From positions 38,172,840-38,236,839 of the forward strand of contig OY997642.1 of the NCBI GenBank assembly GCA_963921795.1: a stretch of DNA of 64,000 nucleotides, read 5' to 3'. Source of the stretch: Nannobrachium achirus (taxonomy: Eukaryota; Chordata; Actinopteri; Myctophiformes; Myctophidae). Both the position numbers and the translations under genes were made by a program. Of this stretch, positions 14,181 through 44,084 are shown one piece after another. Each line of letters opens with the position of its first letter. Position 1 is the stretch's first letter. Below the pieces are notes generated by a model. It made no database searches. It saw nothing but the letters and a program-made list of their open reading frames with translations, and was not told the origin of the DNA.

Positions 14181-16316
14181 TGAGAGGGTCGTTCCCCCTG
14201 AAAAACGCGTTCTGGCACGTAACGGTTACGTTTCGCGCGTTTGTGACGCCCCCTATGAGTCAAAGTGGAAATGCTTTTGGGGATCTGTTGAGTATGCCAC
14301 CCGCAACCTGTGGTTGAAATTTAGTGTCGACGCGACCTTTTGTTTGTGAGTTAGGGCAATTTTTTGCCAAACGGGCCCCTCCCGCTAACTTTGGAAGCGC
14401 GTTACGAACGAACGGTATGGACTATCAAAATATCCTTTGACTATGTTTATTGCGTGGCTTCATAGATCATGTGTACCGGTTTTTAAGACATTTGAAGAAA
14501 ATATGTAGGAAAAGGAGCAAAAAGTGTGTTTTGGAGAAAATTCAAGATGGCGGAAAATCTATCCTGGCGCAAATGGGCGTGGCCTATATGGGGAGATGCG
14601 TCTTGACCCAAGGAATCCAGGGAAAAAATAATTTTAATTTTCCGACCTACGGTTCAAGAGTTACGGGGCAAAACGTAAAGTTGGCCGTTATAGCGCCACC
14701 ATGAGGCCGAGTGATGTAATTAATTTTTGATTAATTCTTACAATCACTATGAACCTCCTCTCCAAGTCTTGAAACTGTAGCCCCTATGGTTTGCGAGAGA
14801 AAAATAATTGAATGTGATTCCCATTATAAGTCAATGGGGAAAATTAATTCACTAATAAATTCATATCAATTAAACTATAGTACCTTTCTCTTAGCAAGTT
14901 ACTAGCACACGATTCCCGCGTAAGCCGGTCGATTTGACATATGGCGCGAGTGTGTGGTGCAAAAACTGTGGGAGGAGTAGCGTGCCAAACTTTGGGGAAA
15001 AGTATGGACAGACTTAAGTAAGTAAATATGAGCGATAACAATAAGTCTGCCCATGCTATGCATAGGCACACTTAACTAGAATTGACAGAGTCAATTTTGA
15101 CAAGTGTGCCTGCAGTGCGCGACCTTGTGCAGCGGTTTGGACGGTGAGACAATCCGCCAAGCCCGTGTTTCGTTGTGAGAGGGTCGGTCCCCGTGAAAAA
15201 CGCGTTCTGGCACGAAACGGTTACGTTTCGCGCGTTTGTGACGCCCCCTATGGGTCGAAGTGGAAATGCTTTTGGGGAAACGTTGAGTATGCCACCCGCG
15301 ACCCGTGGTTAAAATTCAGTGTTGACTTGACCTTTTGTTTGTGATTTATGGCTCTCGTTTGCGAAACGGGCCCCTCCCGCTAACTTTGGAAGGCCGTTAC
15401 GAACGAACGGTATGGACTATCGAAATATCCTTTGACTATGTTTATTGCATGCCTTCATAGATCATGTGTACCGGTTTTTAAAACATTTGAAGAAAATATG
15501 TAGGAAAAGGAGCAAAAAGTGTGTTTTGGAGAAAATTCAAGATGGCGGAAAATCTATCCATACGCAAATGGGCGTGGCCTATATGGAGAGATGCGTCTTG
15601 ACCCAAGGAATCCAGGGAAAAAATAATTTTCATTTTCCGATCTACGGTTCAAGAGTTACGGGGCAAAACGTAAAGTGAGCCGTTATAGCGCCACCATGAG
15701 GATGAATGGTGTAATTATTTTTCGATTTATTCTTAAAATCATTATGAATCTGCTCTACGAGGTTTGAAACTGTAGGCCCTATGGTTTGCGATAGAAAAAT
15801 ACTTGAATGTGACTTTTTTCATTGTCCCATTATAAGTCAATGGGGAAAAATTAATTCACTAATAAATTAATATAAATTAAACTATAGAACCTTTCTCTTA
15901 GCAAGTTACTAGCACACGATTCCAGAGTAAGCCGGTCGTTTTGACATATGGCGCGAGTGTGTGGTGCAAAAACTGTGGGAGGAGTAGCGTGCCGAAGTTT
16001 AGAGAGTGCGCTTGTAAAGTCAATACTAGAATTGACAGAGTCAATTTTGACAAGTGTGCCTGCAGTGCAGCTCCTAAATGCGCGACCTCGTGCAGCGGTT
16101 TGGACCGTGAGACCATCCGCCTAGTTGTGTGCGTTTCGTTGTGAGAGGGTCGTTTCCGTGAAAATCGCATTTTGGCACGAAAGGCTTAGGTTGCGCGCGC
16201 TTGTGATGCCCCCTACGGGTCGAAGTGGAAATGCTTTTGGGGATCTGTTGTGTAAGCCACCTGCGACTAGTGGTTAAAATTCAGTGGTGACTTGCCCTTT
16301 TGTTAGTGATTTATGT
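14181..16316. repeat. ~1-kb satellite, block 3 (about two units)
   Basis: Units with GTGTACCG landmarks near 14473 and 15468. The sequence from about 15120 to 16070 is nearly identical to 49135-50080 and 59600-60555, marking a recent higher-order duplication. The block breaks off inside the phrase TTTGTGATTTATGG at about 16316, where a T-rich tract begins. Confidence 0.92.
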
Positions 16317-16403
16317 TTTTTTTTTTTACTGAAGTGTTGTTGTACATGTTGTTGTCTGAGACAGCACGGGGGGGGGGGCAGTTTTCTTATAAGTCTTGAA
16401 AAA

Positions 16404-17580: not shown

Positions 17581-17581
<1 letters not shown>

Positions 17582-17652: not shown

Positions 17653-17653
<1 letters not shown>

Positions 17654-17802: not shown

Positions 17803-17804
<2 letters not shown>

Positions 17805-19499: not shown

Positions 19500-19568
<69 letters not shown>

Positions 19569-19710
19569 CCAACCAGTTTAACCAGTTCCTTTCCTCGACT
19601 GGTAGGTGGCTGGCCCATTAGGCTAATCAACACATTTTTAGAGATGTAAATTTGGTCTGCTGGGCCATTAGCCTACTCTATGTACAACAAAGGTCTAGAG
19701 GAGGCCTTTC

Positions 19711-19802
<92 letters not shown>

Positions 19803-21413: not shown

Positions 21414-21484
<71 letters not shown>

Positions 21485-21626
21485 CCAACCAGTTTAACCA
21501 GTTCCTTTCCTCGACTGGTAGGTGGCTGGCCCATTAGGCTAATCAACACATTTTTAGAGATGTAAATTTGGTCTGCTGGGCCATTAGCCTACTCTATGTA
21601 CAACAAAGGTCTAGAGGAGGCCTTTC

Positions 21627-21708
<82 letters not shown>

Positions 21709-23312: not shown

Positions 23313-23365
<53 letters not shown>

Positions 23366-23509
23366 CGCCAACCAGTTTAACCAGTTCCTTTCCTCGACTG
23401 GTAGGTGGCTGGCCCATTAGGCTAATCAACACATTTTTAGAGATGTAAATTTGGTCTGCTGGGCCATTAGCCTACTCTATGTACAACAAAGGTCTAGAGG
23501 AGGCCTTTC

Positions 23510-23582
<73 letters not shown>

Positions 23583-23587
<5 letters not shown>

Positions 23588-26379: not shown

Positions 26380-27189
26380 GCGCCCCCTTTGCCAACAAAA
26401 CATGGGACATTGCTTATTTATTTCACTATAACATGCATCTGTACGTTTGTAACTCACTGTCTTTTGTTCATTTAATGTGCAACTCTGTGGAGCATTTTGG
26501 CCATTTCACCACTCACAAAGTTGTACTGCAAACTTTTGGAAATATAAGAGGTTGTTTAAAAACACCTTTTTTTATCTGGGCAATCATATTACACTCTTGA
26601 TAGGTGAGCAGGCTGTGTTTTATCCAGATATTGTCTGGTTGGGTGTAGTTATGTCAGACATAGGAGGTGTCTTTCCAGCATGGGTCATTGGAATAAGCAT
26701 TTAGTTAAATCTTTATTAACAAAGTATTGTGAATAGGTTCAGTGTCAGCAGATTGTGGCAGCTTTGCCTGTGATTTAATGTTCAAATTAAGTGTATTGTG
26801 TAATTCCATTGGAACTTTGCTTAATGTCTTTCTATTCTGTGTGTTATATCCCTAGGGACTCCTGGACACAGTCTGCTTTTACAGAGAGTGCTCCTGCTTC
26901 AACAGACTTGTGCCTGCTGTTAGGTGGTATATGCATCACACATCAAAGAATATATTGTAACATAAAATACACACCTAGACACACACAGACTTTCTATCTC
27001 TCTGTCTAACTCTGTCTCTCTCTGAGTGTCTCTCTTTTTCTGTCTGTGTCACTGTGTCAGTCTTTGTCAGTATCTTCTCTATCTCACTGATCTTATTATA
27101 TATTGCTTTTCCCAGGTTCTTAATTGTATTGTTAGTAAAACTTTTGGTTTGAGTTCTGTCTTTCTAAGTGAACAGGTACTAGCAGAAAG
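25505..27189 (+). other. Putative 5'-UTR intron with internal duplication and (GT)15
   Basis: No coding exon is supported. A GT run lies at 26347-26376. Two diverged copies of one segment share the phrase CAG-CTTGTGGCAGC-TTGCCT and a GTATTGTGTAA tail (about 25880-26000 and 26715-26800). A candidate acceptor CCCAG ends at 27115 after a pyrimidine tract. There is no ATG between 27116 and 27189, so the ATG at 27190 would be the first in the transcript. A possible small untranslated exon starts near 26855 after CCCTAG. Confidence 0.4.
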
Positions 27190-28466
27190 ATGCCGAGACG
27201 AGGCAAGCGGTCTACAGCAGCTGTGCAGAGCCATGCCAGAAGGACTGCAGGTGTAGCTGCTGGAACCGGCTCAGTAGCACTGCCTGGCGAGGTAAATACA
27301 ATGTTACAACTGAATGTTGAAAGTGTTTGTAGCAAGAAAGTACTGATCTTATGTCAGTTCTCTATGTTGTCATTTTGGATCAGAGTATATGTCGACATGT
27401 TTTCTTATTCTTTTTTTGGGTGTTTTGTTTTGTAGATGGGAAACATTGTGCAACCATTAGTCCAGGTAGATGTGAAACAAAGAACTTCTTCACCTTCCTC
27501 CTCACCACCGCGCAAGGTATATTGCAGTGATTTATTTGTGGGTATCACATAATATGTGAAGTTATGCAAATCTTCTGTTGGGAAATGGATTAACTTACAG
27601 GATAACTTTTGCAGTGGAAAAGTTAGTTATGCGAACTTATAATAAATGCTTCCATCAAACAGGTGGCTCGCCTTTGTAAGTCTCCTGGAGAGAGCAGCCA
27701 GACTGCAATGGTGGAACAGGTATGCTATTTCAGAATCTTCATTATTGTGGCAGTCAAAACACCACTTCATACTGTATGTTACACAGTGCATCTTTTTTTC
27801 ATTACACTGAAAAGAGGACAAAGCACTCTGGCTGTGTTCATGTCTTTTCACAGATATCTGATGTTGTGTTTTGAGCGAGATGGTTCTGTTAATAGAGCAC
27901 TTGACTGCTTGAGCAATATGAAGGCACTACACCTGTGTCAAACTTTTATTCAGCAAAACGTGATCCAGCCTTACAATGTCACATGTTCCGTGCATTCCGA
28001 CAACACAGGGATGGTGACAGAACTTTAGTTTAAACACCCAGTACAGAAATTCAATCATGGCTAGACTTTTCTCCCTGCTGCTTGCTTGTTGGGTTAAGTG
28101 GCATTTCAAGTAACAGACTCATCTCCTAGCTTTTGCTGTGTCCTGAACTTTCACCCTTCAGACTTCTGCTAAAATCATTTCAATGACATCTCATTCCCCT
28201 TTCGTCATCTATATTGATTGTTCATTTAGTGAGATTATCTTGGTTCTTTTATTGATGTATTAGGTGCTTATTGTAAATCACTTTGGATTAATATGTCTGT
28301 GAAAATGGCAAAAATGTACTGTCAACACATCTTCCATCTGTTTGTGTGTTTTTAGCTACCACCGGGTGGCACAGGCACACGTCACTCCGTCAGGAAGTGG
28401 GAAAATTCACAGGTGACAGGAAAGCAGTGGAAGTCTGTCTTCCCAGTAGACTTGTCAAAGAAAAAG
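27190..28466 (+). CDS. Helentron gene exons 1-4 (N-terminal basic, low-complexity region)
   Basis: Exons 27190-27291 (34 codons, starts [12 protein letters not shown]-like), 27436-27516 (27 codons, Ser/Pro-rich end), 27663-27719 (19 codons) and 28356-28466 (37 codons, ends in DLSKKK). All join in phase 0 with donors GTAAAT, GTATAT, GTATGC and GTACTT. The encoded residues 1-117 look disordered, with scattered basic residues. No known domain was recognised. The third intron (27720-28355) is the longest in this group and could hide an optional exon. Confidence 0.75.
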
Positions 28467-31400
28467 GTACTTTCATTTATTTGTGTATTAATTGTTGGGG
28501 AGTCAATGTGATTGTGAAGCAAAAAGCATTGATTTGGTTCTGTTTCTTGTCTTCCCTTGAAATAGTTTGCACTCGTCATTGGGGATTCTCATCTACGCTC
28601 GATTGTTGATGGATATGTCAACATGCCAAAGTCTGATGTCAGCTTTGGTTTCATGTCCTACCCTGGAGCAAAAGCAGCAGAGTTGAACCTTGAAGTGAAC
28701 CAGGCTGACGTGCCACATGTGCCGGACATGGTCTGCATTATGGCTACTAGTAACAACATTAGTGGTCACAGTCCGAGTCAGGCAGGACATGACTTCCGCC
28801 AGCTGCTGGAAACAGCCAAGTTGCGCTGGAACCATGTAAGTGGTTTGTTACAATACTTTTTTCTATTGTGCTAATTTTAATGCTTGTCAAAGTTTGAGAA
28901 GGAGTTGTTTTTGACATTCAACACTTGTGTTTTTTATAGGTTTTCGTGCTTGACTTTCCGCCGCGCTTGAATGTGGCCATTGGACACCAGAACGCTCTTC
29001 GCGATGCGTTTAAAAGTGCAGCAAATTTCTGTGGTGAGTAATGGAAATGCATACATAACAGATAATGTGTGGTTAGGTTGATGTAACAATGTGAGTCATT
29101 GTCCGCTTGTACACCGCATAGTTGTGACAAATAGTCCCTAAAAATAGGGATGCAAGGGTTGTAGTTGTCGCGGGCATTTTGAACCATTTGAGGGCAGATT
29201 CATCTTTCAGTGTATTACACTACATGTACAGTAGATACCACCATATTTGTTGTTGTGGGGTATTTTTTGAATAATATTGTTTGTGAATGTGATGTGATGG
29301 TTGCTTATCTGACCTATGATCTGTTTATATTTAGATGTGACCTACACTGGTATCGCAGATCTGTTCCCACTGACACAGTCTGAACTCTGGTGTCGTGACA
29401 ACGTAAGTGTAATCGGTGTTTTAAAAAGCCACATGAAGATTATGCATTATTTTAGATGATATGAACACAACATAACATATGGAGTAATGACATCTTACAA
29501 TGTATATTGGATTGTAAATATTTGTTTTGTCTCTCTTAGATTCATCTTAGTGATTCTGTTGGCCAGGCTGTTTTTGCACTTGCAATTGTCATGGCAGTTG
29601 AAAACGCATTGCAGCGTACAGTGCAGACACCACAGGTTTGTCCACACATCTTACAACTACATAAATACAAGGTAAAATGACATGGTTCCTATTTTCTAGT
29701 CTGTAAAATTTTTTGTCTTTGTATGTGTAGGGGTCTCCGAAGAAGTTGCATTCCAAGCCAGCACTCATCCCACCAACACCTATACGTACAGTGTCTCCAA
29801 GAGTGATTGTCAGTCGAGAAGTGCGTGTTCCACGCTCACCAACTGTGAAGGTAAGTGTTGAATATTGTCACTGCTTTGTGAAAAGGGATACTCTGTTATG
29901 TTATTAAATAGGGATGTTTGATATTATTGGCTGATATTTGTATAAAAACAAATGTCTGAATAGCAGTTGGGCTTTCTGGAAAAAACACATTGCATTTTTA
30001 CTTGAGGTGATTCTTTTTAGTAGTTTAAATCATTTTCAAAATGATAATTACCAAACAAACAGTTTGGGACATACAAGGGTTCCACCCCACAACAACTATA
30101 TATCAGTATTGGTTAATTTGTATTGGACAGGAACAGATGGATGTATGGCTTAATGGTCAAAGGATAATATCACATATTCTTAGTATTCACATTTCACTCA
30201 TCACTCTGCATTTGTCATTTCAGCTGAGTCAACATCCTGTACGTCCTGCTCATTCTGCTTGGGTCTTACAGCAGCAACAGCAGCAGCAACAGGTTAAAAC
30301 CGTCTTGATACTTACTGTTAGGGTCAAGTGTGTGTTCTACTCACTTTGTTTTATTTAGGAGTAGCAAACATTGTTCTCAATCAACTGCGCACATAGCTTT
30401 GACTACTGAACCAAACATGTGCTCTATTCCACAAACATGCAATCCATTGACAGCCTCACATGATGTATGAACTGTACAGATACTCACATGAAGTGTGTGT
30501 GTGTCTATGTTTTTGTATAGCCTAGCAGTGTCAGACGGATGACATGGATACATACATGACTCTACGAGATTATACCCATTGCAGAGTTTGACTATAGGCG
30601 GAGAGCATGAGAAATACAAAAAGAAAATGAAAATTTATATTTATGCCACATTTAATAATTGTAATGTCTTTCTTTCTTGCTTTCATGCTTTCTTTCTTTC
30701 TTCCTTCTTTCAAAAGGATGGCTCACCAGAGAGTTCAATCCCCCGCAATCCTGTGTGGTTTTGCCCTAAAGTCTTGGATGCTATGGAAACCTTCCAACCA
30801 TCCAACTCAAACAGCCCTGTGGAGTGCCGAGGTTTTCCAAAGGCCAGCCAGGTAAATGGAAAGCAAAGTGTATCTGTTGTTTAGGCCTTATTTAATGTAG
30901 ACACATACAAAATATCAAAATTATGCAAGAAACTACACACAGGGTTTCCACTGTCCTGGCTAACAAAGGTTTTGTTTGTTTCTATGTGCAGGCAAGCCCT
31001 CCAAAATCACCTCGGAAGTATCTGCACAGACCACTGTCAACACCGCCTCTCTTCCGAACACTGCCTGTGAGATGTGACGTGCCTTCTGCCAGGGTAAGGA
31101 CATGTGACAGTTATATGTTTCTAGGTATTTGACATGCTGTGAGACATTTACATAGCTTGGTGTGAAGTTATAATGTATGTAGATGTGTTAAAGCTCCATG
31201 CGAGAGTGATAGGAAACAGTCTGTGCAAGCAGGGCAGCCCTTAAATGATCAGATGTACAACCTCACAAGGTCTTGTGTCTTAATTGCATAGTACAACCAC
31301 AGTCTACTACTGTAGTTAAGTTCTACGCAGTCTTATACTGATTGTCATTGAGACTTGAGCAGTACAACCACAGTCTTCTGAGTGAGACTGGGGCTCATTG

Positions 31401-34400
31401 CAATAAAAGAGGTTGAGCATGTTTGGTGGAGCATAGGAACATGTACGTTTGCGCTGTCATGCCTAATAAAGGTTTTGTTTGTTTCAATGTGCAGGCAAGC
31501 CCTCCAAAGTCACCGCGCAAGTGTTTGCGCAAATCACACACAACACAGCGTCTCTCCCCAACACTGCCTGTGAGATGTGACATGCCTTGTGCCACGGTAA
31601 GGGGATGTGAAAGTGATATGTTTCTACTTATTTGACATGCTCTGACACATTTACACAAACAGTATGCGCATGCAGCCAGTCTTGAAATTATCAGATATAC
31701 AACCTCACAAGATGTTGTCTCTAAATTGCAAAGCTATGCATAGTACAACCACAGTCTACTGCTGTAGTTAAGTGCAACCACAGTCTTATACTGGTACTCA
31801 TTGAAAGATTAGCAGTACAAGCACAGTCAAGCTGGGGTCATTGCAATTAAAAAGGTTCAGTATATCTGCTAAAGCGTAGCAACATGTATGTCAAATCTGT
31901 TGCTACCTACACACAGTTTCCACTGTTATGAATTGTCATGATATGAACATTGTTTGTTTTTGTGTATAGGATGAGTGCTGGGACTTACCGCTCTCATCTA
32001 CTGAGTGGCCACCACTGCCTTCTCCAGGACATGCTGTGAGCTGCAGCCTGGACGTACCCCTGTCATCTAGTGTTGTGGTGAGGAGATATGACTTCTAAGT
32101 GTGTTACAAAAGAAATGTTTTTCTGATCCTTATTTGAGTGTTTATTCTTTATTTTTGGGGGGTAAATTCACTCAGTGTGAGAGCAAATCGCTTGTTACTT
32201 CGTCAGTGCATCTGTCTGTGACACGTCACACTTTTGCCCTGTTCATATCTCTCCAATGGTTGCACTGATCCATGCCAGATTGTGCACACATAATCCTTGT
32301 CTGCCAAATCACAACCTCCACCCATTAATTCCCACATGACCCTCTTCTAGCGCCACACTGAGGCCGATTCTTGCAAAACACATTTTTGAACACGACTGCT
32401 ACAGTTTTTGCCCTAAAATCACACTAATCGGTACACAGTATGTCTACACTCATGACATCAGCATGGATCTGTCCCATATAGCGCCATCTTCAGGCTGATT
32501 TTTTACAATGTATTGACAATAGCTTATAACATTACCACTACATAGGATCCACTGGGACATAGGTTCTACTCAAAAGTAACTGTTTTGGACATGTATACAA
32601 ATAACAAAACTATATCACTATTATGGATGTGTTGATTTGAGATTTATCATTGTTTTTGTTTGTTTGTTTTTTTGTCAACAGATGGAGACGGACTGTTTCA
32701 TCCATGAAGTTCATCTTCCCGGTCAACCACCCACTGTTGTAAGAGCATCTTCTTGCCAAGGCGAGATATTGGACAACATATTGGACGACCCAAACGACCC
32801 CAACTCCAAAAGGTCAAACAGTCAGTGCACATGCATGGCACTGACTTTTCTGGCTCAACAACATGAGGGAATGTGTTTTGACACACCCTCCCTTGACAAT
32901 GTGCTTGAAAATGGAGATATTCTCTATAAAGGCGTTATAACACAGCATCAGTACGACAACAGGCTTGTACTACCATACTTAGCCATAGAGGAGTTACCAA
33001 AACAGGTTTTCACTGAAAGCAATGTTTATAGTGCGTTGTGGGATAACTCTGATATTAAGGCTGGTTTTGTAAAAAGTTCTGCTTGTAAAAGTGAAAGGAC
33101 TAGTGAACGTTTGCCGTATCTTGAGGAGAGTCTGCAATGCTTATCAGAGAATGTAACCCATGCTATCCTTATAGTAGCTCCTGAATGCTTTGCATTGTTC
33201 CGTGACACATCAGGCCGCTATGGATTTTTTGACTCTCACTCCAGATGTGCCATGGGTTTGCCACAACCTCAAGGAAAAGCAATACTGCTGATTTTCAATG
33301 ATCTGCGTGGTTTGCTTGGCCATCTGCACAAACTTTTTGAAGAGCGCCCTCTTGATGTGATGTTTGAGCTTTTGCCTGTCTCATTTCGGATTGATGATGG
33401 GACTCCTGGACCATCAACAGCTATGTCCATGTCAGCAGCTAGAGCAGCAACTGACCATGTTCTGTGTGAGACCCCTGGACCATCAACGTACGTGACAAGC
33501 ACAGCGGCAATCAACTGTTGCTCCAGTGACACCCCTGTGCAGTCAACCGAAGTGACTGCTCTGCCAGCAATCGACCGTAGCTCCAGTCAGACCCCTAGAC
33601 TGTCACCCAATGAGACAATCACAGCAGCATTGCCAAAACTGCCACTTTTTGACTTATGTGTAAGGAGTGGAAGAAGGCAAGATAATCAAAGTTGTCAAGC
33701 AGTCAGAGCCAGTATTTGTCAAGGGGACATTGTCGGACAGCACCTGAACAAACAGTGCAGCTGCATGGCGCTCACATTTCTTGCTTACCACAATGACGGA
33801 GTGGATTTCAACACACCTTCACTTGACAAAGTGCTTTACCAGGGAGATGCGCTGTACAAAGACTTAATACGGCAGCTGCAGTTTGACCAACTGTTACAGG
33901 AACAGTGTTATCTATTGTCCATGGAGCAGCTACTCTATGCCAAGCATATTTCCACCAACCAAAATGTTTACAGTGTACAACTGGACATGGCAAAGCTTAA
34001 AGTTGGTCCCCTGGACAACACAAAAGGGAAGAACTTGTCCCTTGCTGACCAACTGCAGAAGAGTCTGTTAGAGGAGGGGGTCAAGCATGCCTTGTTGATG
34101 GTAACCCCTGAATGCTTTGGAGTATTCCGCGACAGTTCAGGCCACTATGGATTCTTTGACTCCCACTCGAGGTCTGCAGACGGTTTGTCTGTTGTTGGAG
34201 GCAAGGCTATTATGTTGACTTTCAATGAACTGAGTGCTCTGCTCTGTCACTTGCACCAAATCTTCAAAGACCGTCCCTCTGGTGTTTCATATGAGCTCAT
34301 GCCTGTTGCATTTGAAGTGGACAATATTGCCAGTACAACACCAGCAGTACCAACACATGCACCAGCTGTTCCTACATATACGCTTTCCAAACTAAATATA

Positions 34401-37400
34401 TCAAGGCGTAGAAAGAACAGGCGAAAAATCATGCAGCAACAGGATGAGTGCATTGAGCAAAATGTACCTCGTGCAAACAAGGGCTTGAGAACCTCTAATC
34501 CTGTCCAATATTATAAAATGAGATATAGAACTCCTGAACTCCGCCTAAAGAAACTTGAAACAATAAGAAGGAGACGTAACAGCGATGCTGTTTACCGAGA
34601 GAGATTGAACGCCTACATGCGTGAAAGGCGTCACAACAACCCAGAACACAGGCAACAGTCTTTGCAGCAAAATGCCAAACGCGAGCATGAAAGGCTGCTG
34701 AACAACCCAGCATACCACCAACAGCGTCTGCGAGAACAGGCAAACAGTGAGCGCAAAAGGCTTACTCACCCAGCATACCACCAACAGCGTTTGCAAGAAA
34801 ACGCAAACAGCAAGCGCAAAAGGCATACTCACCCAGAATACAGGCGCCAACGTCTGGACCAAAACGCAAACAGCGAGCGCAAAAGGCTTTCTGACCCAAA
34901 ATACAGGCGCCAGCGTTTGGACCAAAAGGCAAAAAGCAAGCATGAAAGGCTTACTGACCCAGAATATAGACAACGCCATAGGCAACAAAGGGCCAAGAAC
35001 CAGTGGCATAGGCTTTCTGACCCAGAATCCAGGCGGCGCCATATACAACGATGTACCGAGATCAAAAAACAGAGACTTGATGGGGATGTCATACTTCGTA
35101 TGCGTCACAAGTTGCAGTGTGCCATGAGAATAAAGAGGAAATCCGTACACATTGTCAACCGTCACTTGCAAATTACAATGGAAGCTGCCATGGTAGAAGC
35201 CATATCAGCATTTCGAGAAAGCGTTAAATATGGGCCCACATATGTCTGTACGGTGTGTCATAGAGCCATGTTCTCCAATCAGGTCCTTTGCTGTAACAGA
35301 GACAATTACAAGAAAAACCCTTCCGTGGTAACTGCTTGCTTAACAGGCAAGTATGTGCACACATGCAACAGCGTATGCTCAGACCCATGCAACGTTGCAC
35401 AAGAAAGGAGACACGAGTACATCTGCCACTGCTGTCACAACAACTTGAAAAACGGCAAGATGCCATCCATAGCAGCTGCTAATAAGCTCGAAGTAGCACC
35501 TGTTCCGCCAGAGTTGCAATTGTTAAATATGCTGGAAAGGCAGATGATTGCAAAGTTCTTACCCTTTGCTAAAATAATTTCATTGCCTAGAGGACGGCAA
35601 AAGGCAGTGCATGGTGCTGTAATTTGTGTGCCGTCGCAAGTGGAAACTGTGGTCAATGCCCTTCCAAGGTCCAGCAATGATGACCAGCTGTTGCATGTTA
35701 AACTGAAGCGACACATCAACTTCAAGGGCTATCAATTCTTCTACACGGTAAACATGACAAATGTGTTGGCAGCGCTGAGAGAACTCAAACAAATGCATCC
35801 TGAATACTATGACATTGTCATAAACGACAATGCTTCGTTTGACCGTCTCCAAGATGAGCAGTCAGCTGATGAAGATGCAACAGAGGAAACTCCTGCTGCC
35901 ATCATAGATGAGCCGCAGCAGGAACCCTCACGTGCCATCACACATGACCCTCAAGTGCATGACCAACTTGCACCCAGTCCGTCCACTGCCGTCACAACAG
36001 ATGAGCAACAGCAGGAGGAGCTTAGACCCGGTCTCACCTTTGACACGTGCATGCAGCCTCCGAACATAGCACAGGAGATCTTATCATACGGTGAGGGAAT
36101 ATTCAGCATTGCGCCAGCCCAAGGAAACAAGCCTGTAGGTATTTTCACTGTCCCCAAACTGGAGAGCATGGCCTTTCCTGGGCATTTCCCAGACGGTCGG
36201 AACACATTGGATGAGGTCAGAGAAATAAAATTGTCGCCAAGTAGATACTTCAACGCCAGGCTCTTTTGTGTCGATACCCGCTTTGCCATTGACCAAACTT
36301 ACCTCTTTTATGCGCAGATGGCAGCAGAAACACGCATGGCTACTAATAGCATGTCCATCCAGGTACGAAAGGGGAAAAAATATACCAGAGATGGGCGGGT
36401 TCTGTCAAACAAAATGCTTCAGGACAAGGAAGAGGTAGAAAGACTTGTACGCAACAAGGATGCAACACGATTCATGCAGCCCCTTAGAGGAACTCCATCG
36501 TTCTGGGAGAAAGCGCTTAGAGACCTTCTTGCTATGTCTAGACAGATCGGCAGGCCCAATTGGTTCGTCACGCTAAGTGCCGCGGAGATGAGGTGGCCAG
36601 AACTCATCAATATCATAAAAGCGCAACAAGGTGAACAAGGGGACTATTCACAGCTCGACTGGGTTGCGAAGTGTGAAATCATCCGGACCAATCCTGTCAC
36701 ACTCATGCGCATCTTTTCACACAGATTTGACAAGGCCATCGATTTTCTCCAGTCACCTGCTAGGCCAATCGGTGAGGTTGTGGACTACTTCTATAGGGTG
36801 GAATTTCAGGCTAGGGGAAGTCCCCACGTTCACATGATGGTGTGGATCAAAGATGCACCCACGTGCGATGACCCACGAGTCATCAAGTTCATAGACACCT
36901 ACGTTAGTTGCAAGATGCCTGACCAGTACGCAGACCCTGAGCTCCACAAAATTGTGTCTGAAGTTCAAATGCACAGCCGAAGCCACTCCAGATCATGCAA
37001 GAAAGGAAACGTCACTTGTCGATTTGGGTTCCCCAAATTACCAATGGACAACACAATCATCACTGAACCACCACTTCCACCTTTGGATGACATCAAAGGC
37101 AACAATGATGACGAGGCTGAAAAAGATGAAAGCATTGGTGGGCAGAGTGCCCAACCACTATCATCATTGCATGACAGCAAAGGTGACGACAAGGGCAAAA
37201 AAGATGAAAACGTTGGTGGTGAGAAATGTAAAGGGCAAAGGCAAAAGGGCAGGAGGCGAGAAACTAAAGAACAAATGCAAGCCAAAGAAAAGCTGGCACC
37301 CCTGAGGGACATGCTCAATGACCCTAAAGCCTCATTCAAAGATTTGCCTGACCTTTTGGGCAAATGCAACCTGACTGCAGAGCAATATCGGGACAACGTG

Positions 37401-40400
37401 GACAACCTTACAACTGCACCCACCATTCACCTGCAACGACATCCAGATGAATGCTGGATAAATCCGTACAATCCCCCTCTGCTGCGAGTGTGGAATGCCA
37501 ACATGGACATCCAATACATATTGGATGATTTCAGTTGTGCACACTACATGATGGGCTATGTTGCAAAGCCGGAACATGAAATGTCCCAACTCCTTACCGA
37601 AGTGGTTAAAGAAGTTCGCAAGTCTAACCCGAACGTTGACAAAATGGATGAAATGAAACATATCATGCACACATACGTCCAGCACAGAGAGGTCAGTGCA
37701 CAGGAATCTGTGGCCCGAGTATGCAGTCTCCCACTTAAAAAGTGCAGCCGTCAAGTCATTTTCTTACAGACAGACGAGGATGGTCTGCGAATGAGTCAGC
37801 CCATGAGCAAACTGAATGAAATGGACCCAGACACACAAGACGTGTGGATGTCAGGGATTCCTGACAAGTACCTGAACAGGCCTCAGGAGCCAGAATTTGA
37901 AGACTTATGTATGGCCACGTTTGCCTCAGAATACAGGGTGGTGTACAAACAACCGGGTGAAAACACAAAAGCACTGCTGAATGACATGGGCTTTGTTCAG
38001 AAACGAACTAAGCTCGATAGGGTCGCCATCATACGTTACCCACCTTTCTCTGAGCAGAAAAACCCAGAAAAGTTTTACAGACGGTTGTTGAAACTGTACT
38101 TGCCACACAGAGAAGATGCCCAACTGAAAAGCAAGAGCTGTCCCACTTATGAGCAGTTCTACAAAAACGCTCACGTGCTTCTTGGTGAAAAAAAGAGCAC
38201 ACAGTGGTCTGTGAAAAACATTGTCGATAAAAACAAAGCCAAATATGAAAACCGGGGCAAAAAAATTGATCAAGCTGTGGAAATTTTGCAAGCAGACCAA
38301 CCAATCCTTGATGCGTGGAAAAATTATGATGCAGATGCAGAAGATGTTTGCTTGAGGCAGCAAAAAGCCAGCGATCTACAAGAGCAAGACGCCATACCAG
38401 ATTACCAAGTGCAGCCCAACAGCAGTAGGGCCATGCCAGGGATAGATGCTCCTGAATTGAATCCAGACTATGTCAGGAGCATGTATCAAAGCCTCAACGA
38501 AATGCAAGCATCCATTTTCTACACCGTCCGTCAATGGTGTTGGAGGCGCGTCTGGCAGCAGGATCCTGATCCCTTCTTCTATTTCATCTCTGGAGGTGCT
38601 GGCTGTGGCAAGTCTCATGTCATCAAGTGCATATATTATGAGGCTACCAAGATTTTGCGCCAACTTCCCTACTTTCTCAATGAAGCAGACATGACCCAGC
38701 CAGCAGTTCTGCTGGCAGCCTTTACTGGCACGGCAGCTTTCAATATCTCTGGGAGAACCCTGCACTCGTTGCTGAAGCTACCAAGAGGTATGCACGGCCC
38801 GTATAAATCGCTTGGAAATGCACTGGATGGGATGAGGGGAGCACTGTGGACTGCAGAGATCTTGATCATTGATGAGATATCCATGGTCTCTAACGATGTC
38901 TTTAACTACGTCGACTTAAGACTCCAGCAAATAAAAGGCAACAGGAAACCCTTTGGTGGAATGTCTGTCCTTGCAGTGGGAGACTTCTACCAGCTGCCAC
39001 CAGTTGGTTCTAACAAAACGCTCTGCAATGCTGACGAGGCTGTGCGTGGTCTCTGGGCACATTTTGTGCTGGTCGAACTTACAGAAATCATGCGTCAAAG
39101 AGACGATCGCATTTTCGCCGAACTCTTGAACAGGCTAAGAGTAAAGGGGAAGGCTGACCGTCTCAGTGCTGAAGACAGGGCTCTGCTCGCACAAGCTTGC
39201 ACAGAAAGAGATGACGGCCCATATGATGTCCTTCATATATTTGCTAGAAATACAGAGGTCAAAACCCACAACAAAAAGGCTATAAAAACTCTTGGCACAC
39301 CCATTTTCAGCGTTATGGCCCAAGATTTCTACAGGGACAGATGCTCAGGTCAGATGAATCCGCTGGCCAAGCCCAACGAGAACGGGACTGAAAGCGACTT
39401 GCAACAAACAATTGAAGTTGCTGAAGGAGCGCGGGTCATGGTCATTAGAAATCTGGATGTTGAAGACGGTATCGTGAACGGGACTTTTGGAACAATAGCC
39501 AACATTGTTGCAACCACTGCAAACGGATGCACGGTTGTGGGCTTACTTGGCCTCAGATTGGATAGTCCCACAGCAGGTCAGAACTTCCGCAGGAAGATTC
39601 AAGGGCCAACAGATGACCTGGTGTACATTGAAAGGGTTGAGGAGAACCTGGCCAACAAATCACTGGTGCGACGGCAGTTCCCCCTGAAACTGGCATTCGG
39701 GTGTACCACCCACAAAGTTCAAGGCATGACCGTCAGTTCTGCAGTGGTGTCTATGGAGAAGATGCAGAACTCTGGAATAGCTTATGTAGCCCTGAGCCGA
39801 ACAACCTCCCTTCAAGGGCTCAAAATCAGACACTTTGATGAAGGGAAGATTTACGCCAACCCAAACATAAACATGGCAATGCAGAGCATGAATCGTGCTT
39901 CCTTCCAAGTGCCGAGACCACTGATGCATTTTGTGCAAGAGTACTCTGGAGGTCCCACTTTAACCATTGTCCATCACAACACGCAAGGACTGATGTCACA
40001 CATTAAGGACGTGAGGGCTCACCACGAATTAAGACATGCTGATGTATTGTTGATGACAGAAACTCATTTGTCTGGAACCTCCGTTCTCACAGAAGTTGAG
40101 CTGGATGGATACCACTTGGTTACACGTAACAGACATATGTCTTATACCAGCGCCAACACTCAACACATTGCTACAAAAAAGGGAGGTGGAGTTGCAGTGT
40201 ACTACAGGAGCAGTCTTCAAGCAAACCCTGGGAGGTTCATTGACAATATCAGCGATCTTGAGTTTGCAGTCGTCAGAGTTGAGGCCCCAGTCAAAGCGCT
40301 TATAGCCACTGTGTACAGACCGCCAAGATACAATGACAGCGACTTTTGTCTCAACCTTGGACGCCTCTTAGATTCTTTGGCCTTGATGGATTGCCAACCA

Positions 40401-40649
40401 ATTGTCGTCTGTGGGGATTTCAACGAGGACCTCTTGAAGATGGGACGAAAACGTGTTAAGGAGCTGTTTGAGTCCAAAGGCTACAGCCAGCTTATTGCCA
40501 CTGCAACAACTCAAGAGCAAACCCTGATTGATCACATCTACATATCACAACCACAGTCTTGCATTCAGAAGGGTGTACTGCACACCTACTACAGTTACCA
40601 TGATGCAGTATACTGTGTATTGACTTCAGCAGTACCAATTATGGAGTGA
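27190..40649 (+). CDS. Helentron transposase: 15-exon SGNH / 2x protease / Rep / PIF1 helicase / endonuclease protein
   Basis: Exons: 27190-27291, 27436-27516, 27663-27719, 28356-28466, 28566-28835, 28940-29033, 29335-29402, 29540-29635, 29731-29850, 30224-30292, 30717-30851, 30992-31093, 31495-31596, 31970-32077, 32682-40649. All 14 introns are GT-AG. All are phase 0 except the phase-1 intron after exon 6. The joined frame is 9,483 nt, 3160 residues, with no stop. Domains by residue: basic N-terminus 1-117; SGNH hydrolase ~118-293; Pro/Ser/Gln linker 294-505; protease-like domains ~506-740 and ~825-1060; basic 21-mer repeats 1158-1304; DUF6570-like ~1355-1555; Rep ~1693-2135; helicase ~2430-2902; endonuclease ~2930-3160. 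ATG 27190 has A at -3. It would act in the nucleus, nicking and unwinding DNA for transposition. Splicing is inferred from sequence only; the last exon is certain. Confidence 0.88.
28566..29635 (+). CDS. Helentron gene exons 5-8: SGNH (GDSL-like) hydrolase domain
   Basis: Exons 28566-28835, 28940-29033, 29335-29402 and 29540-29635 encode residues 118-293. Block I is VIGDSH with the nucleophile Ser125. A Gly in YPGAK (Gly151) fits block II. Asn180/Asn181 in ATSNNI fits the oxyanion Asn of block III. Block V is RDNIHLS with Asp260 and His263 spaced D-x-x-H. The intron between exons 7 and 8 falls between Asn261 and Ile262, so the catalytic Asp and His are in different exons. The match of four blocks in order is strong evidence for the family. 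SGNH enzymes are esterases or lipases; the substrate here is unknown. SGNH domains are known in ORF1 proteins of CR1-type LINEs. Confidence 0.85.
29731..30851 (+). CDS. Helentron gene exons 9-11: linker with poly-Gln
   Basis: Exons 29731-29850 (40 codons, Pro/Arg/Ser-rich), 30224-30292 (23 codons, ending in eight Gln) and 30717-30851 (45 codons, contains [14 protein letters not shown]). All are phase 0. The acceptor before exon 11 follows a TTTC-rich pyrimidine tract at about 30668-30710 and reads CAAAAG. The encoded region (residues 294-401) looks like a flexible linker, except for the more ordered-looking exon 11. No domain was recognised. Confidence 0.72.
30992..32077 (+). CDS. Helentron gene exons 12-14: tandemly multiplied exon
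   Basis: Exons 30992-31093 and 31495-31596 are both 34 codons, both start ASPPKSPRK and both contain TLPVRCD, so they are a tandem exon duplication with a 503-bp offset. The introns after them also match (phrases such as GTACAACCACAGTCT recur). Exon 14, 31970-32077 (36 codons), has a weaker but similar pattern (PPLP..., S-LDVPLSS) and a related upstream intron, so it may be an older third copy. All are phase 0, so copy number can change without breaking the frame. Function is unknown; probably linker. Confidence 0.75.
32078..32681 (+). other. Last intron of the Helentron gene, with an old interspersed repeat
   Basis: Donor GTG|GTGAGG and acceptor GTCAACAG|ATGGAG. Between about 32215 and 32500 the intron carries a diverged relative of the repeats at 4130-4200 and 55310-55790, sharing phrases such as CGTCACACTT, TCCATGCCAGATT and TAGCGCCA. 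The end of the intron is a TTTG/T-rich pyrimidine tract that, read as codons, imitates a signal peptide. Confidence 0.75.
32682..33390 (+). other. Protease-like domain 1 (herpesvirus tegument DUB-like, peptidase C76 type)
   Basis: Residues ~506-740 of the full protein. [12 protein letters not shown] motif (Cys554 and Cys556) lies near the start, then a [13 protein letters not shown] segment, then YGFFDSHSR with Asp689 and His691 in D-x-H order. An N-terminal Cys with a later D-x-H pair is the layout of the herpesvirus large-tegument-protein deubiquitinases. It differs from the OTU layout, in which Asp and Cys are close together in DGxC. Deubiquitinase activity is inference; which of the two cysteines is the nucleophile is not certain. 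Confidence 0.7.
32682..40649 (+). CDS. Helentron gene exon 15 (main exon, 2655 codons)
   Basis: The frame is open from 32637, but 32637-32681 is the 3' end of an intron: the sequence TTTTTTTGTCAACAG precedes ATGGAGACG at 32682, and the frame matches the upstream exons. This exon holds both protease-like domains, the basic repeats, the DUF6570-like region, Rep, helicase and endonuclease, with stop TGA at 40647-40649. If upstream exons were skipped, the ATG at 32682 could start a 2655-residue protein on its own. A candidate polyadenylation signal AATAAA lies at 41269-41274. Confidence 0.95.
33391..33635 (+). other. Thr/Pro/Ser linker with degenerate repeats
   Basis: Between the protease-like domains the protein repeats a TPGPST-like unit about four times (TPGPST, TPGPST, TPVQST, TPRLSP) with a spacing of about 20 residues. 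It is probably a flexible spacer. Confidence 0.6.
33636..34330 (+). other. Protease-like domain 2 (duplicate of domain 1)
   Basis: Residues ~825-1060. It has the same order of motifs as domain 1: [11 protein letters not shown] (Cys864 and Cys866), [13 protein letters not shown], and YGFFDSHSR with Asp998 and His1000. All catalytic candidates are kept in both copies, so neither looks like a dead pseudo-enzyme. The two clearly arose by internal duplication and have diverged outside the motifs. Confidence 0.7.
34638..35079 (+). repeat. Seven 63-bp coding repeats (basic 21-residue units)
   Basis: Residues 1158-1304. Units follow a pattern like NPxYRxQRLxQNANSxRKRL, repeated seven times with a 21-residue (63-bp) period and no frame change. 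The region is very rich in Arg, Lys and Gln and likely helical, and could bind DNA or RNA. It sits between the proteases and the DUF6570-like zinc region. Confidence 0.85.
35226..35830 (+). other. DUF6570-like zinc-binding region
   Basis: Residues ~1355-1555. Starts with CTVCHRAM (first Cys about residue 1361) and continues with several Cys/His pairs including ICHCCHNNL, then [12 protein letters not shown], a [15 protein letters not shown] stretch and a [10 protein letters not shown] segment. This matches my memory of DUF6570, which typically precedes Helitron_like_N in transposases of this group. It is likely a DNA-binding or nickase-accessory module. Confidence 0.65.
36045..37610 (+). other. 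Helitron Rep (HUH nuclease) domain
   Basis: Residues ~1626-2148. The Helitron_like_N core begins at about residue 1693 (YFNARLF). The HUH motif is PHVHMMVW with His1887 and His1889. The two-tyrosine motif is HYMMGYVAK with Tyr2127 and Tyr2131, four residues apart as in Helitron Y2 enzymes. HUH enzymes cut one DNA strand and form a 5'-phosphotyrosine link. An acidic/lysine-rich insert separates HUH from the tyrosines (see 37081-37270). All expected catalytic residues are present. Confidence 0.9.
37081..37270 (+). other. Charged repeat insert between HUH and Tyr motifs
   Basis: Residues ~1972-2035. Two copies of a pattern like [18 protein letters not shown] are followed by a very basic run ([14 protein letters not shown]). 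It appears to be a low-complexity insertion inside the Rep domain. Confidence 0.6.
38455..39880 (+). other. PIF1-type superfamily 1 helicase domain
   Basis: Residues ~2430-2902. Walker A is GGAGCGKS (2476-2483). Then [18 protein letters not shown]; Walker B IIDEISMV with Asp2569 and Glu2570; [10 protein letters not shown]; the ELTEIMRQ motif; [21 protein letters not shown]; and [14 protein letters not shown]. This is the full set for a PIF1/RecD-like 5'-3' DNA helicase, the standard partner of Rep in Helitrons. No missing motif. Confidence 0.95.
39950..40649 (+). other. C-terminal EEP (AP-like) endonuclease domain
   Basis: Residues ~2930-3160. Motifs in order: HHNTQGL, TETHL (Glu2965), [24 protein letters not shown] (Asp3084, Asn3086), TLIDHIY and SYHDAV (His3145). 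This is the exonuclease-endonuclease-phosphatase fold as in CR1-like LINE endonucleases, and its presence defines the Helentron type. The domain ends 15-16 residues after the last motif, so it is not truncated. Confidence 0.92.
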
Positions 40650-41358: not shown

Positions 41359-42005
41359 ATGCTTGCCAAGTCTATTTTCACTGTAGCTATTGAAGCTTAT
41401 TTGTAAAATGATGTTACATTCTATTCAGATTCAGATTGAGAAAGAAAGAAAAACATGTTTCTTGTACTGTACCACTAGACATCTATTTTGTTTGCTCATT
41501 GACTTAATATACAGTAACAGAAAAACAAACTTACACTGTGTGGTGTCCTTTATTGTGTGTAACTGCTTTAATCATTCTGGGGGAAACTGTCTGATTCACA
41601 TGGGATATAAGTACCAAAAGTAATCTCTATGCTCAATAATTTAATATACAGTTTAAAAAAAAACATGCTTGACAGGTCTATTTTCACTGTACCTATTGAC
41701 GTTTATTTGTCGAATGATGTTACATTCTATTCAGATTCAGATTGAGAAAGAAAGAAAAACATGTTTCTTGTACTGGACCACTGAACATCTATTCTGTTTG
41801 CTCATTGACTTAATATACAGTAAGAAAAAACCAACTTACACTGTGTGGAATCCTTTATTGTGTGTGACTGCTTTAATCATTCTTGGGGAAACTGTCTGAT
41901 TCACATGGGATATAAGTAGCAGAAGTAATCTCTATGCTCATTCATTTAATATACAGTAAGAAAAAAACGAACATGCTTGACAAGTCTATTTTCACTGTAC
42001 TTATC
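41359..42005. repeat. Helentron 3' subterminal tandem repeats (~306 bp)
   Basis: Two full units start at 41359 and 41665 and a partial third at 41973, each beginning ATGCTTG-CA-GTCTATTTTCACTGTA. Spacing is 306 and 308 bp. Each contains ATTCAGATTCAGATTGAGAA, TTAATATACAGT and TTCACATGGGATATAAGTA. The same phrases occur after the truncated copy (2930-3330), so these repeats belong to the transposon. Subterminal tandem repeats are known in Helitron2/Helentron elements. Confidence 0.88.
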
Positions 42006-42051: not shown

Positions 42052-44084
42052 AGTCCTGTACAGTACACTACAGCACAGTAAGGTACAGCACAGACAGTAC
42101 AGAAGATACAGTACACTATATAACAGTAAGGTACAGTACACTACAGCAGAGTAAGGTACACTACAGTACAGTACAGTACAGAAGATACAGTACAATACAG
42201 TACGGTACGGTACTGTACAATACAGTACAGTAAAGTACAGCACAGTCAAATACAGTAATGTACAGTACAGTGCAGTAACATACAGCACAGTAAGCTACAG
42301 TAAGGTATAGCACAGTACAATAAGGTACAGTACAGTACAGTAAGGCACAGTACAGCACACTAAGGTACAGTACAGTACAGTACACTACAGTAAGGAAGCG
42401 GGCGTGGACTATAGACCTGAGCAGCCTGAAACGCTGCAAACTTCTAGTATATCTGAACCGCTAACAAACACATTAATGTTATCCACTCACTCACACCATC
42501 ACTCACACCATCACTCACACCATCGCCTCACACAACTGTCTGCTTATGGGCCAGGGCCTAGACTTGCTCTTTCTGGATACATAGACAAATACATAATATA
42601 AAGATTGGAAACTTTGAATAATAATAATAATAATACGGGTAAAAATAATAATATCTGGAATTTACATAACACTTTTACAGTTCAGTACAGTAAGGCACAG
42701 AACAGTACCATAAAGTACAGTACACTACCATCCAGTTCATTACTATATCAGAACCGCCAACAAACACATTAATATTATCCACTCACTCACACCATCACCT
42801 CACACAACAAATAAAAAAGCATGGTTGACTAATTAGGCTAGACACTGTACCAATTGAAACTTGAAAGGCATAGGCTACAGATTATATAACTGCACGGACC
42901 ATCAGAAAAAGTCACTGACGTGGGCGGAACTGCTGCTGTTGAGTTGAATATAGTCCAAATGTTTTATACTTCCATCACAGACGGTTCCACAACTGACAAA
43001 CAACTGTCTGCTTAGGGGCCAGGGCCTAGACTTGCTATTTCTGGATACATAGACAGATACATAATATAAAGATTGGAATCTTGGAATAATAATAATAATA
43101 AGGGTAAAAATAATAATATCTGGAATTTACATAACACTTTTACAGTTCACTACAGTAAGGCACAGAACAGTACCATAAAGTACAGTACACTACCATCCAG
43201 TTCATTACAGAAGATACAGTACACTACAGTACAGTAAGGTACAGCACAATACAGTACAATAAGGTACAGTACACTACAGCACAGTAAGGTACAGCACAGA
43301 ACAGTACAGAAGATACAGTACACTACAGCACAGTAAGGTACAGTACAGTACAGTACAGTACAGTACAGTACAGTACAGTACAGTACAGTACAGAAGATAC
43401 AGTACAATACAGTATGGTACGGTACAGTACAATACAGTGCGAAACGGTACAGTACAATACAGTGCAGTAAAGTACAGCACAGTAAGGTAAAGTACAGTAC
43501 AATGCAGTAAGGTACAGCACAGTAAGGTATAGTACAGTACAATAACATACAGTACAGTACAGTACAGTAAGGTACAGTACAGCACACTAAGGTACAGTAC
43601 AGTATTACAGTTCACTACAGTAAGGCACAGAACAGTACCATAAAGTACAGTACACTACCATCCAGTTCATTACAGAAGATACAGTACACTACGGTACAGT
43701 AAGGTACAGCACAATACAGTACAATAAGGTACAGTAAACCACGGCACAGTAAGGTACAGCACAAAACCGTACAGAAGATACAGTACACTACAATACAGTA
43801 AGGTACTGTACACTACAGCACAGTAAGGTACGGTACAGTACAGTACAGTACAGTACAGTACAGAAGATACAGTACAATACAGTAAGATACGGTACAGTGC
43901 AATACAGTGCAGGTACGGTACAGTACAATACAGTGCAGTAAAGTACAGCACAGTAAGGTAAAGTACAGCACAGTGCAGTAAGGTACAGCACAGTAAGGTA
44001 TAGCACAGTACAATAACATACAGTACAGTACAGTAAAGTACAATACAGCACACTAAGGTACAGTACACTACAGTAAGGAAGCAA
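42052..44084. repeat. CAGTA-type pentanucleotide arrays and associated module (right of Helentron)
   Basis: Degenerate arrays of GTACAGTACA with variants (GCACAG, AAGGTACAG) lie at about 42052-42396, 43150-43612 and 43613-44084. They alternate with a non-repetitive module of about 430-470 bp (42397-42720, 42740-43150) that contains TTATCCACTCACTCACACC, GGGCCAGGGCCTAGACTTGC and an (AAT)n run. Arrays read on the minus strand give Cys-Thr-Val-Leu-Tyr frames, which are not genes. Satellite resumes after the phrase CAGTAAGGAAGCAAG at about 44085. Confidence 0.88.

Follow-up and report, generated by a model that had tools for sequence, protein, structure and literature searches.

A predicted 15-exon Helentron transposase gene with an SGNH hydrolase part encoded by short 5' exons in Nannobrachium achirus

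We analyzed a window of 64,000 nucleotides from Nannobrachium achirus (the whole stretch of DNA under study; GCA_963921795.1, contig OY997642.1, positions 38,172,840 to 38,236,839), which contains a predicted transposase gene composed of one long exon and 14 short upstream exons. This structure had been proposed in an earlier note from the sequence alone, and recomputing it gave the same result: the 15 exons join into 9,483 nt, corresponding to 3,160 codons followed by TGA at 40647-40649, with 0 internal stops in our frame check of the window and GT-AG borders at 14/14 introns. Intron phase is 0 in 13 of the 14, with phase 1 at exon 6/7 only. All introns lie upstream of the core, the 2,655 codons of exon 15.

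27190..27291, + strand, exon 1: start codon; ten-residue motif (letters not shown) common to SGNH-less Helentrons
27436..27516, + strand, exon 2: phase 0
27663..27719, + strand, exon 3: phase 0
28356..28466, + strand, exon 4: phase 0
28566..28835, + strand, exon 5: start of the SGNH hydrolase part; GDSH, catalytic-type Ser
28940..29033, + strand, exon 6: SGNH
29335..29402, + strand, exon 7: SGNH; entered in phase 1
29540..29635, + strand, exon 8: end of SGNH; D-x-x-H motif across exons 7/8
29731..29850, + strand, exon 9: linker, Pro/Ser-rich
30224..30292, + strand, exon 10: linker with Gln run
30717..30851, + strand, exon 11: linker, IPRNPVWF
30992..31093, + strand, exon 12: ASPPKSPRK type; tandem copy of exon 13, in a duplicated unit of ~503 bp that includes an intron
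31495..31596, + strand, exon 13: ASPPKSPRK type
31970..32077, + strand, exon 14: junction to exon 15 in phase 0
32682..40649, + strand, exon 15: 7,968 nt; core without introns, stop TGA

The ATG of exon 2 was rejected as the gene start, as a diverged genomic copy of the element (C11) has ACG there. Because a splice acceptor lies 14 nt upstream of the exon 1 ATG in both the window and C11, the transcript probably carries at least one further, non-coding 5' exon.

The domains of the core were as follows.

32787..33401, + strand, VTD1, viral-tegument-like deubiquitinase domain: PDB 8ADD, E 7.7e-29; Herpes_teg_N, E 8.4e-5, under its gathering score
33723..34376, + strand, VTD2: contains the 5' cassette breakpoint at ~34,016-34,131
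34705..34966, + strand, 63-bp tandem repeat within the reading frame
35451..35831, + strand, DUF6570
36246..36842, + strand, Helitron_like_N / HUH Rep domain: E 4e-32; HVH motif
38493..39110, + strand, PIF1-family helicase: E 2.2e-23
39975..40550, + strand, C-terminal exo/endonuclease/phosphatase-type endonuclease (EEP): Exo_endo_phos, E 5.3e-14, over its cut-off

Helentrons are rolling-circle transposons with a C-terminal endonuclease, and the features of this group are present: an HUH Rep and a PIF1-type helicase in one chain, and an EEP/AP-type endonuclease at the C-terminus. The earlier note had placed a hydrolase, two protease-like domains, Rep, helicase and endonuclease in one frame; this set stands, with the protease-like pair refined by the match to PDB 8ADD. 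By sequence and fold, both are predicted viral-tegument-type deubiquitinases (VTD), and both retain QC.CMALTFL and FFDSHSR (Cys and Asp-x-His motif). A high-confidence predicted model of the VTD of a relative, P0003, matched 8ADD in Foldseek (1.1e-16), and deubiquitinase activity has been demonstrated for domains of zebrafish DrT1 (PMC9741609).

In the SGNH part, the motif residues of the window protein are GDSH (S125), TSNN (180/181) and D260xxH263, and the residues of the Texim blocks (Ser, Gly, Asn and Asp-x-x-His) are all present. The acting Gly and Asn are presumably those typical of the family. Scores stayed below the curated Pfam cut-offs: PF19040 reached 17.4 bits in the window (cut-off 27), and among four relatives the highest score was 30.2 for PF13472 (cut-off 32.9). 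Searching PDB sequences with the SGNH part gave a single match, with an E value of 0.43. The structural evidence comes from P0003, not from the window protein itself: the SGNH fold of P0003 gave a high-confidence model that matched SGNH-type hydrolases in Foldseek from 7.3e-6, among them 4h08, TesA and PAF acetylhydrolase. A Pfam search with part of an alternative exon 1 in copy C16 returned no match.

The left edge of the mobile unit is probably marked by a T run where the flanking satellite ends.

16316..16327, + strand, run of 12 T, probable left edge of the mobile unit, at the end of a ~1-kb satellite

The right flank re-enters the satellite unit at a different place, and there is consequently no clean empty site. 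Comparing the reversed left end with 40.65-44.15 kb gave a longest exact match of 12 nt, which is A-rich, and the seven inverted-repeat pairs at 41.9-44.2 kb all fall within a GTACA microsatellite; these two comparisons gave no clear terminal inverted repeats and did not place the right end.

Elsewhere in the genome, at least 35 places are 86-100% identical to the Rep segment (40 of 78 candidates scored) and the core frame is open in seven of eight copies examined; the family is a multi-copy Helentron with intact copies. In the 86-100% group, five copies, C11 included, were covered far enough upstream for comparison, and all 14 short exons were present in each. Four close copies (C1, C5b, C2 and C10) carry exons 1-14 in order, with identical lengths and splice dinucleotides and 0 stops. 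The diverged copy C11 also has exons 1-14 in order, at 47-91% amino-acid identity (exon 14 via 19 of 36 residues only), and keeps their splice sites and phases plus the exon 15 acceptor. Short exons and plentiful GT and AG yield many spurious chains, so a chain assembled by eye might be due to chance; we give this explanation practically no weight and rejected it, as exons and splice sites recur in all five copies and the C11 comparison, exon by exon, retains splice sites and a codon-position pattern. The view in the earlier note that the match of exon ends to splice sites is not accidental was therefore upheld. Its emphasis on a transposon that keeps 14 introns needs qualification: the introns are indeed preserved in copies, but none interrupts the transposase core.

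Differences between the window and C11 in exons of equal length fell at codon positions 1, 2 and 3 in 55, 42 and 113 of 297 sites each (p = 2.5e-12). It is this pattern that speaks for coding; raw identity is no evidence, since comparable introns (0.77) are about as identical as exons (0.78), with introns aligning above shuffled sequence (0.74-0.85 vs 0.62-0.68). The dN/dS between the window and C11 was 0.28 for exons 1-13 (bootstrap 0.21-0.36) and 0.27 for exon 15, a codon-level signal that exons 1-13 and the long exon are under like purifying selection.

Three copies, C7, C9 and C1b, lack SGNH, and all three begin with the exon 1 motif in the same open frame as the VTD. The motif was the best of 1,171, 452 and 394 scored ATGs in C7, C9 and C1b, with scores of 26.0, 26.0 and 25.9 (next best 4.7, 4.7 and 2.4). 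Our reading is that exon 1 would carry the Helentron N-terminus and that exons 2-14 would form a cassette of SGNH and linker between this N-terminus and VTD1. In C7 the open frame is intact over 2,507 codons (2,498 counted from the ATG), which could suggest that the 5' exons, formerly part of the gene, are bypassed in the present element, active elements using exon 15 only. We regard this as very improbable, given that the five checked copies of the 86-100% group retain intact exons 1-14 and that the comparison between subfamilies shows purifying selection on exons 1-13.

A weightier alternative is that the locus holds two genes: a captured multi-exon SGNH gene (texim) with its own 3' end, and a single-exon Helentron ORF starting from the ATG at 32682, with the in-frame junction being incidental. 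In the available text of Tomaszkiewicz et al. 2014 (PMC4021074), texim is an SGNH hydrolase gene described as "captured"; platyfish texim cDNAs obtained by RACE have their own stop (15 exons in teximYa/b), and the Helitron lies either inside the final intron or 3 kb downstream. What the earlier note named as evidence against a single gene, a separate 3' end for the upstream exons, is thus partly on record in platyfish, and the fusion may be accompanied by a short separate product. Exon 15 opens with an ATG in both the window and C11 and could for this reason start a separate protein, and reading through past exon 14 in the window gives six codons and then a stop in intron 14. This stop is not conserved in C11, and we rejected it as setting the 3' end. 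Further points against two genes are the phase 0 of the exon 14/15 junction in both subfamilies (window and C11), the resemblance of exon 1 to the N-terminus of SGNH-less Helentrons, and the like dN/dS, though the latter alone is compatible with two genes.

Protein databases bear on the same question. Searching with the SGNH part of P0007 (Xiphophorus hellerii LOC116736996), and admitting only proteins 0.55-1.75 times the query length, we found 29 proteins from 17 named fish species; in 28 of them SGNH and Rep belong to a single chain. These fused proteins are predictions of unstated function, and it is at the level of predicted proteins that the fusion is seen in other fish. Most have VTD, DUF6570, PIF1 and EEP like the window; unlike the window, each has at most one VTD match, and OTU is also listed in 18 of the 28. 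A search at shorter lengths favors two genes: it yielded five proteins with SGNH and no Rep, of which two carry a VTD. A full-length search yielded four proteins, three without SGNH. Among the genomic matches listed, 31 of the 35 close Rep places are preceded, within 40 kb and on the same strand, by an SGNH match, which favors one gene; against it, 41 of the 72 SGNH places listed, including all 26 of the 78% class, are not followed by a close Rep.

Taken with the 28 fused models, we consider two genes unlikely. One gene with 15 coding exons, the claim of the earlier note, is well supported by comparison (like selection, an in-frame junction in two subfamilies, a shared N-terminus and fused models), with the platyfish cDNAs as the record to the contrary. 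The locus is thus probably a Helentron whose transposase gene joins an intron-free core to 14 short spliced 5' exons and is predicted to give at least one protein of 3,160 residues. The SGNH part, which was published as a host gene that had been captured, appears to be integral to the transposon.

The SGNH part and the core do not share a simple history. A near-identical 5' cassette sits on diverged cores, with the breakpoint inside VTD2. Within its own core clade, the window SGNH shares 39-46% identity with the other four species, and with the second clade 41-48%; the corresponding Rep values are 61-65% and 37-41%. SGNH and Rep distances nevertheless correlate weakly (Mantel r 0.32, 10/2000 permutations as high), and core-clade labels were clustered on the SGNH tree (3 changes, 5-6/500 shuffles as low), in which 9/16 inner branches are unresolved. 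The reverse test of SGNH labels on the core tree (500/500 shuffles as low) is uninformative because only two rows lack SGNH; the 17 SGNH-bearing fused models in this tree are 35.5-58.6% identical to the window core. Given these mixed results, simple co-inheritance was rejected as the whole story, and the weak agreement of SGNH and core counts against the single-gene reading.

Splicing would join exons 1-15 into a fusion that may then be translated. Exons 2-14 can be removed without a change of frame, so a transposase lacking SGNH could arise by exon skipping, and a stand-alone SGNH (Texim) protein from transcripts that end near exon 14. The SGNH domain may be an active esterase serving as a cis-acting accessory module, and the VTDs may protect transposition proteins against ubiquitin-dependent loss. 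Tentatively, the 5' half of fish Helentrons might be an exchangeable, intron-rich module, in which splicing of mostly symmetric phase-0 exons yields these three products and introns are joints for swapping 5' cassettes among diverged cores; Texim would then be transposon-born rather than a captured fertility gene.

The novelty claimed in the earlier note was overstated: the SGNH-Helitron association was published in 2014 and a two-VTD Helentron in 2022, and public databases contain fused models. Already known are the SGNH part (texim, PMC4021074) and the viral-tegument-like deubiquitinases (PMC9741609); new are the fused reading with selection evidence, the mostly phase-0 exons and the near-identical 5' cassette on diverged cores. 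Texim has been discussed as Y-linked, testis-expressed, Helitron-captured genes in platyfish and guppy, and should the SGNH exons form the start of a transposase gene, the number of texim copies and their expression in testis may stem from transposon biology. The element would be a rolling-circle DNA transposon that retains a long intron-rich stretch through many copies, where exon skipping or swapping alters the protein with the frame intact, and that combines replication machinery with two deubiquitinases and an esterase-like enzyme in a single predicted chain.

As in texim/teximY, a multi-exon SGNH gene with blocks S, G, N and H lies directly 5' of a Helitron coding region; unlike the captured, separate gene described there, the SGNH exons of the window are in frame with the RepHel exon and share the transposase N-terminus. 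In the available portion of that report (PMC4021074), texim was not found in zebrafish, and a role of Texim in Helitron transposition was already raised as one option. Zebrafish DrT1 likewise has two VTDs before RepHel and a C-terminal endonuclease; the main text of the paper on the VTD-bearing DrT1/DrT2 Helentrons (PMC9741609; PDB 8ADD), as far as available, does not use the words SGNH, intron or exon. A mite Helentron (PMC4067079) has Rep, helicase and endonuclease like the window, with corrected ORFs stated to be intron-free. The wheat Helitron Feng8 (PMC13286980), for which SGNH, VTD and EEP go unmentioned in the available text, resembles the window in having a transposase gene with introns, though of seven exons and encoding 1,676 residues.

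We joined the 15 exons listed in the earlier note, which gave 9,483 nt (3,160 codons and a stop), and all 14 introns proved to be GT-AG as it had claimed. The gene comprises the following features:

27190..32077, + strand, exons 1-14, short upstream exons, with the hydrolase part in exons 5-8
32682..40649, + strand, exon 15, long core exon with the stop

Thirteen of the 14 introns are in phase 0 (p = 4e-4 for at least 13, with the usual phase-0 share of ~47% as expectation). The first 505 residues come from 14 exons and 2,655 from exon 15; thus, no intron lies beyond the first 16% of the coding sequence, and none interrupts the RepHel core. Exons 12 and 13 are a tandem duplicate, intron included. 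An in-frame stop lies 21 nt upstream of the ATG. A 5' non-coding exon is likely, because an acceptor (CAG/GTAC) lies 14 nt before the ATG (window 27160-27190) and is also present in C11, a diverged copy in the same genome; a candidate end of this exon lies at 25504 in the window. The introns had been called unusual, which holds for their number: the available texts describe seven exons in the wheat Feng8 Helitron (PMC13286980) and state that mite Helentron ORFs are intron-less (PMC4067079). Feng8 means, however, that introns in Helitrons were already known.

Of the domains that the earlier note placed on one predicted polypeptide, hydrolase, Rep, helicase and endonuclease stood; the two protease-like domains are, judged by homology, viral-tegument-type deubiquitinases (VTDs). 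Exon 15 matched DUF6570, Helitron_like_N, PIF1 and Exo_endo_phos in Pfam, VTD1 matched the crystal structure of zebrafish DrT1-VTD2 (8ADD, E 7.7e-29), and VTD2 is a homologue of VTD1. Helentrons with such VTDs, one with two, and deubiquitinase activity of zebrafish VTD domains are reported in the available text of PMC9741609. By its block motifs, the upstream hydrolase is predicted to be SGNH-like (residue roles assigned after the available text of PMC4021074 and from general knowledge), with SGNH Pfam scores under the curated cut-off in it and the relatives scored. The predicted model of a database relative, P0003, is confident at ~residues 120-270 and 550-760; its structural matches to SGNH-type hydrolases start at E 7.3e-6 and include PAF acetylhydrolase (4.0e-4).

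We searched the 1.66-Gb genome of the species with a 2-kb Rep segment. The 40 best of 78 candidates were scored, 35 at 86-100% identity and 5 at 64-66%, and upstream sequence was compared in 12 chunks of 10 kb, extended for C11, C7, C10 and C2. The exon structure recurs in other copies, as the earlier note had proposed checking: all 14 upstream exons were found, in order, in C1, C5b, C2, C10 and C11. No exon deviated in length or splice dinucleotide in the first four, which are close copies; C11 preserved splice sites and phases, with several introns of other length. For the rest of its subfamily (C14, C20a, C508 and C20b), the 10 kb of upstream sequence falls short of exons 1-11. In the 64% group (20 kb upstream of C7, 10 kb each of C9 and C1b), no upstream exons were found apart from sequence resembling the beginning of exon 1. 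Between the window and C11, exons 1-13 had a dN/dS of 0.28 (SGNH exons 5-8 taken alone, 0.18) and exon 15 one of 0.27; this comparison excludes exon 14, whose C11 counterpart is of a repeated ASPP type and present twice. In C11, GGCAGCAAGGTAAGT-like units are repeated in tandem between METECF and VTD1, where exon 15 starts; they resemble donor sites, stay open in frame, and possibly represent small exons or introns that are newly arising.

Three results from sequence comparison favour upstream exons and core being one gene. First, the three SGNH-less copies examined open with the exon 1 motif (MPQRKKRSIAAKNRW in C7 and C9, MPRKSKRSQARKQYW in C1b; 15 residues in the window), in frame with their own VTD. 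In C7, a single open frame (2,507 codons, 2,498 from ATG) continues to the core end. When ATGs were scored with a matrix built on six SGNH-type N-termini, hand-chosen for likeness rather than taken from all proteins, the C7, C9 and C1b starts ranked first by a wide margin among 1,171, 452 and 394. Second, residues 1-470 of P0007, a fused Xiphophorus hellerii model (LOC116736996), found 29 proteins, itself included, of which 28 match SGNH and Rep in one chain. The 28 come from 17 named fish species; some species contribute several isoforms or loci, and "isoform" is part of the name in at least 14. Because only proteins of 0.55-1.75x query length could be found, the search gives no estimate of stand-alone SGNH frequency. 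A shorter-length search returned five proteins, none with Rep and two (P0003, P0005) with SGNH and VTD, and one with the window's full length returned four, SGNH being in P0007 only. The sole exception of the 29, P0029 (Echeneis naucrates), has MPRKGKRSEA at the N-terminus and its SGNH part joined to a ZMYM4-like (ZMYM-type) protein, which may reflect a faulty model or a host fusion.

Third, the exon 14/15 junction is in phase 0 in both subfamilies (window and C11), and C11 lacks the intron-14 stop at which a separate upstream gene would terminate. This bears on the alternative of two genes, an upstream SGNH gene with its own 3' end, which the earlier note had named as refuting, and a separate core ORF. 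Exon 15 does begin with an ATG, and the available text of PMC4021074 describes platyfish teximY RACE and RT-PCR products of 15 exons with their own stop, testis expression, and a Helitron that lies either 3 kb downstream or within the last intron; one of two options its authors give is that Texim takes part in Helitron transposition. The captured-gene view is taken up again for guppy in the available text of PMC7643365. The exon 1 likeness of the SGNH-less copies and the 28 fused models speak against two genes. Both views could hold if a short Texim product is made in addition to the fusion protein. Among the papers listed from the available literature (subscription papers and repeat databases being outside its scope), we found no description of SGNH as part of a Helentron protein.

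Across the genome, 72 SGNH places were among the matches listed (150 best of 265 candidates scored). Of these, 31 had a Rep place (40 scored of 78) in the same orientation at most 40 kb downstream, with a chance of ~0.0005 per place, and 41 had no listed one. By class, among the matches listed, the counts were 12/21 (96%), 18/18 (69%), 0/26 (78%) and 1/7 for others; conversely, SGNH lay upstream of 31/35 close Rep places and 0/5 distant ones. The third class (78%), its 26 listed places being without a close listed Rep core and most having equal score, was perhaps recently amplified. At one of the 41 places, C16:60321618, exons 2-9 are kept at 85-100% protein identity, exon 1 differs (MPRKKGIQQ..., ending in phase 0), and likeness to the window starts ~3 nt past the exon 1 end, at the start of intron 1; this change (C16:60316118-60323408) looks like exon shuffling through the intron.

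The fused protein is most likely the transposase, in which, from the roles known for these families, Rep would nick and join DNA, PIF1 unwind it and the EEP domain cut target or donor. VTDs would strip ubiquitin from transposition proteins, as suggested in the available text of PMC9741609, and SGNH would most likely act in cis as an accessory esterase, much like the CR1-type esterase to which that of PMC4021074 refers. Removing exons 2-14 as a block keeps the frame, so their skipping could yield an SGNH-free form.

C2 and C10 match the window at 99.1-100% identity in 0.6-1 kb segments over 26.5-34.0 kb, introns included; at 34.0-34.6 kb the identity is down to 92.6% (C2) and 88.0% (C10). Across the core C2 keeps 90.8-93.9%, and C10, its core compared to 34.6 kb, has 92% in the Rep segment. 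C5b shows 98.5-99.8% to 34.0 kb, 88-92% at 34.0-36.4 kb and 95-99% thereafter. The runs of changes start at 34,016 or 34,131, within VTD2; in C1 identity does not break in this way. In the core tree, SGNH-bearing members form two deep clades, the window's clade also including SGNH-less C7 and P0009 (a database relative), and the SGNH tree agrees with it only in part. Our reading is that 5' cassettes have been swapped from one core to another. If the SGNH part evolved faster, this could account for the tree disagreement but does not explain the sharp identity break between copies.

The left edge of the element probably lies near 16.32 kb, where a ~1 kb satellite ends and a run of 12 T begins, and 96-99% likeness to C10 and C2 extends onward from it. 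Three to four tandem units of ~1.9 kb with internal GT runs (window 16400-24000) lie upstream of the gene, within the probable mobile unit, and the right edge is somewhere in 40.9-44.1 kb. The satellite contains an internal 438-bp duplication; it lies on both sides of the element (window 1-16315 and 44084-64000) and likewise borders C10 and C2 on the left. A non-satellite insert at 2013-4866, with stretches 80-85% alike to 306-bp repeats at 41359-42004, may be left over from the 3' part of another copy.
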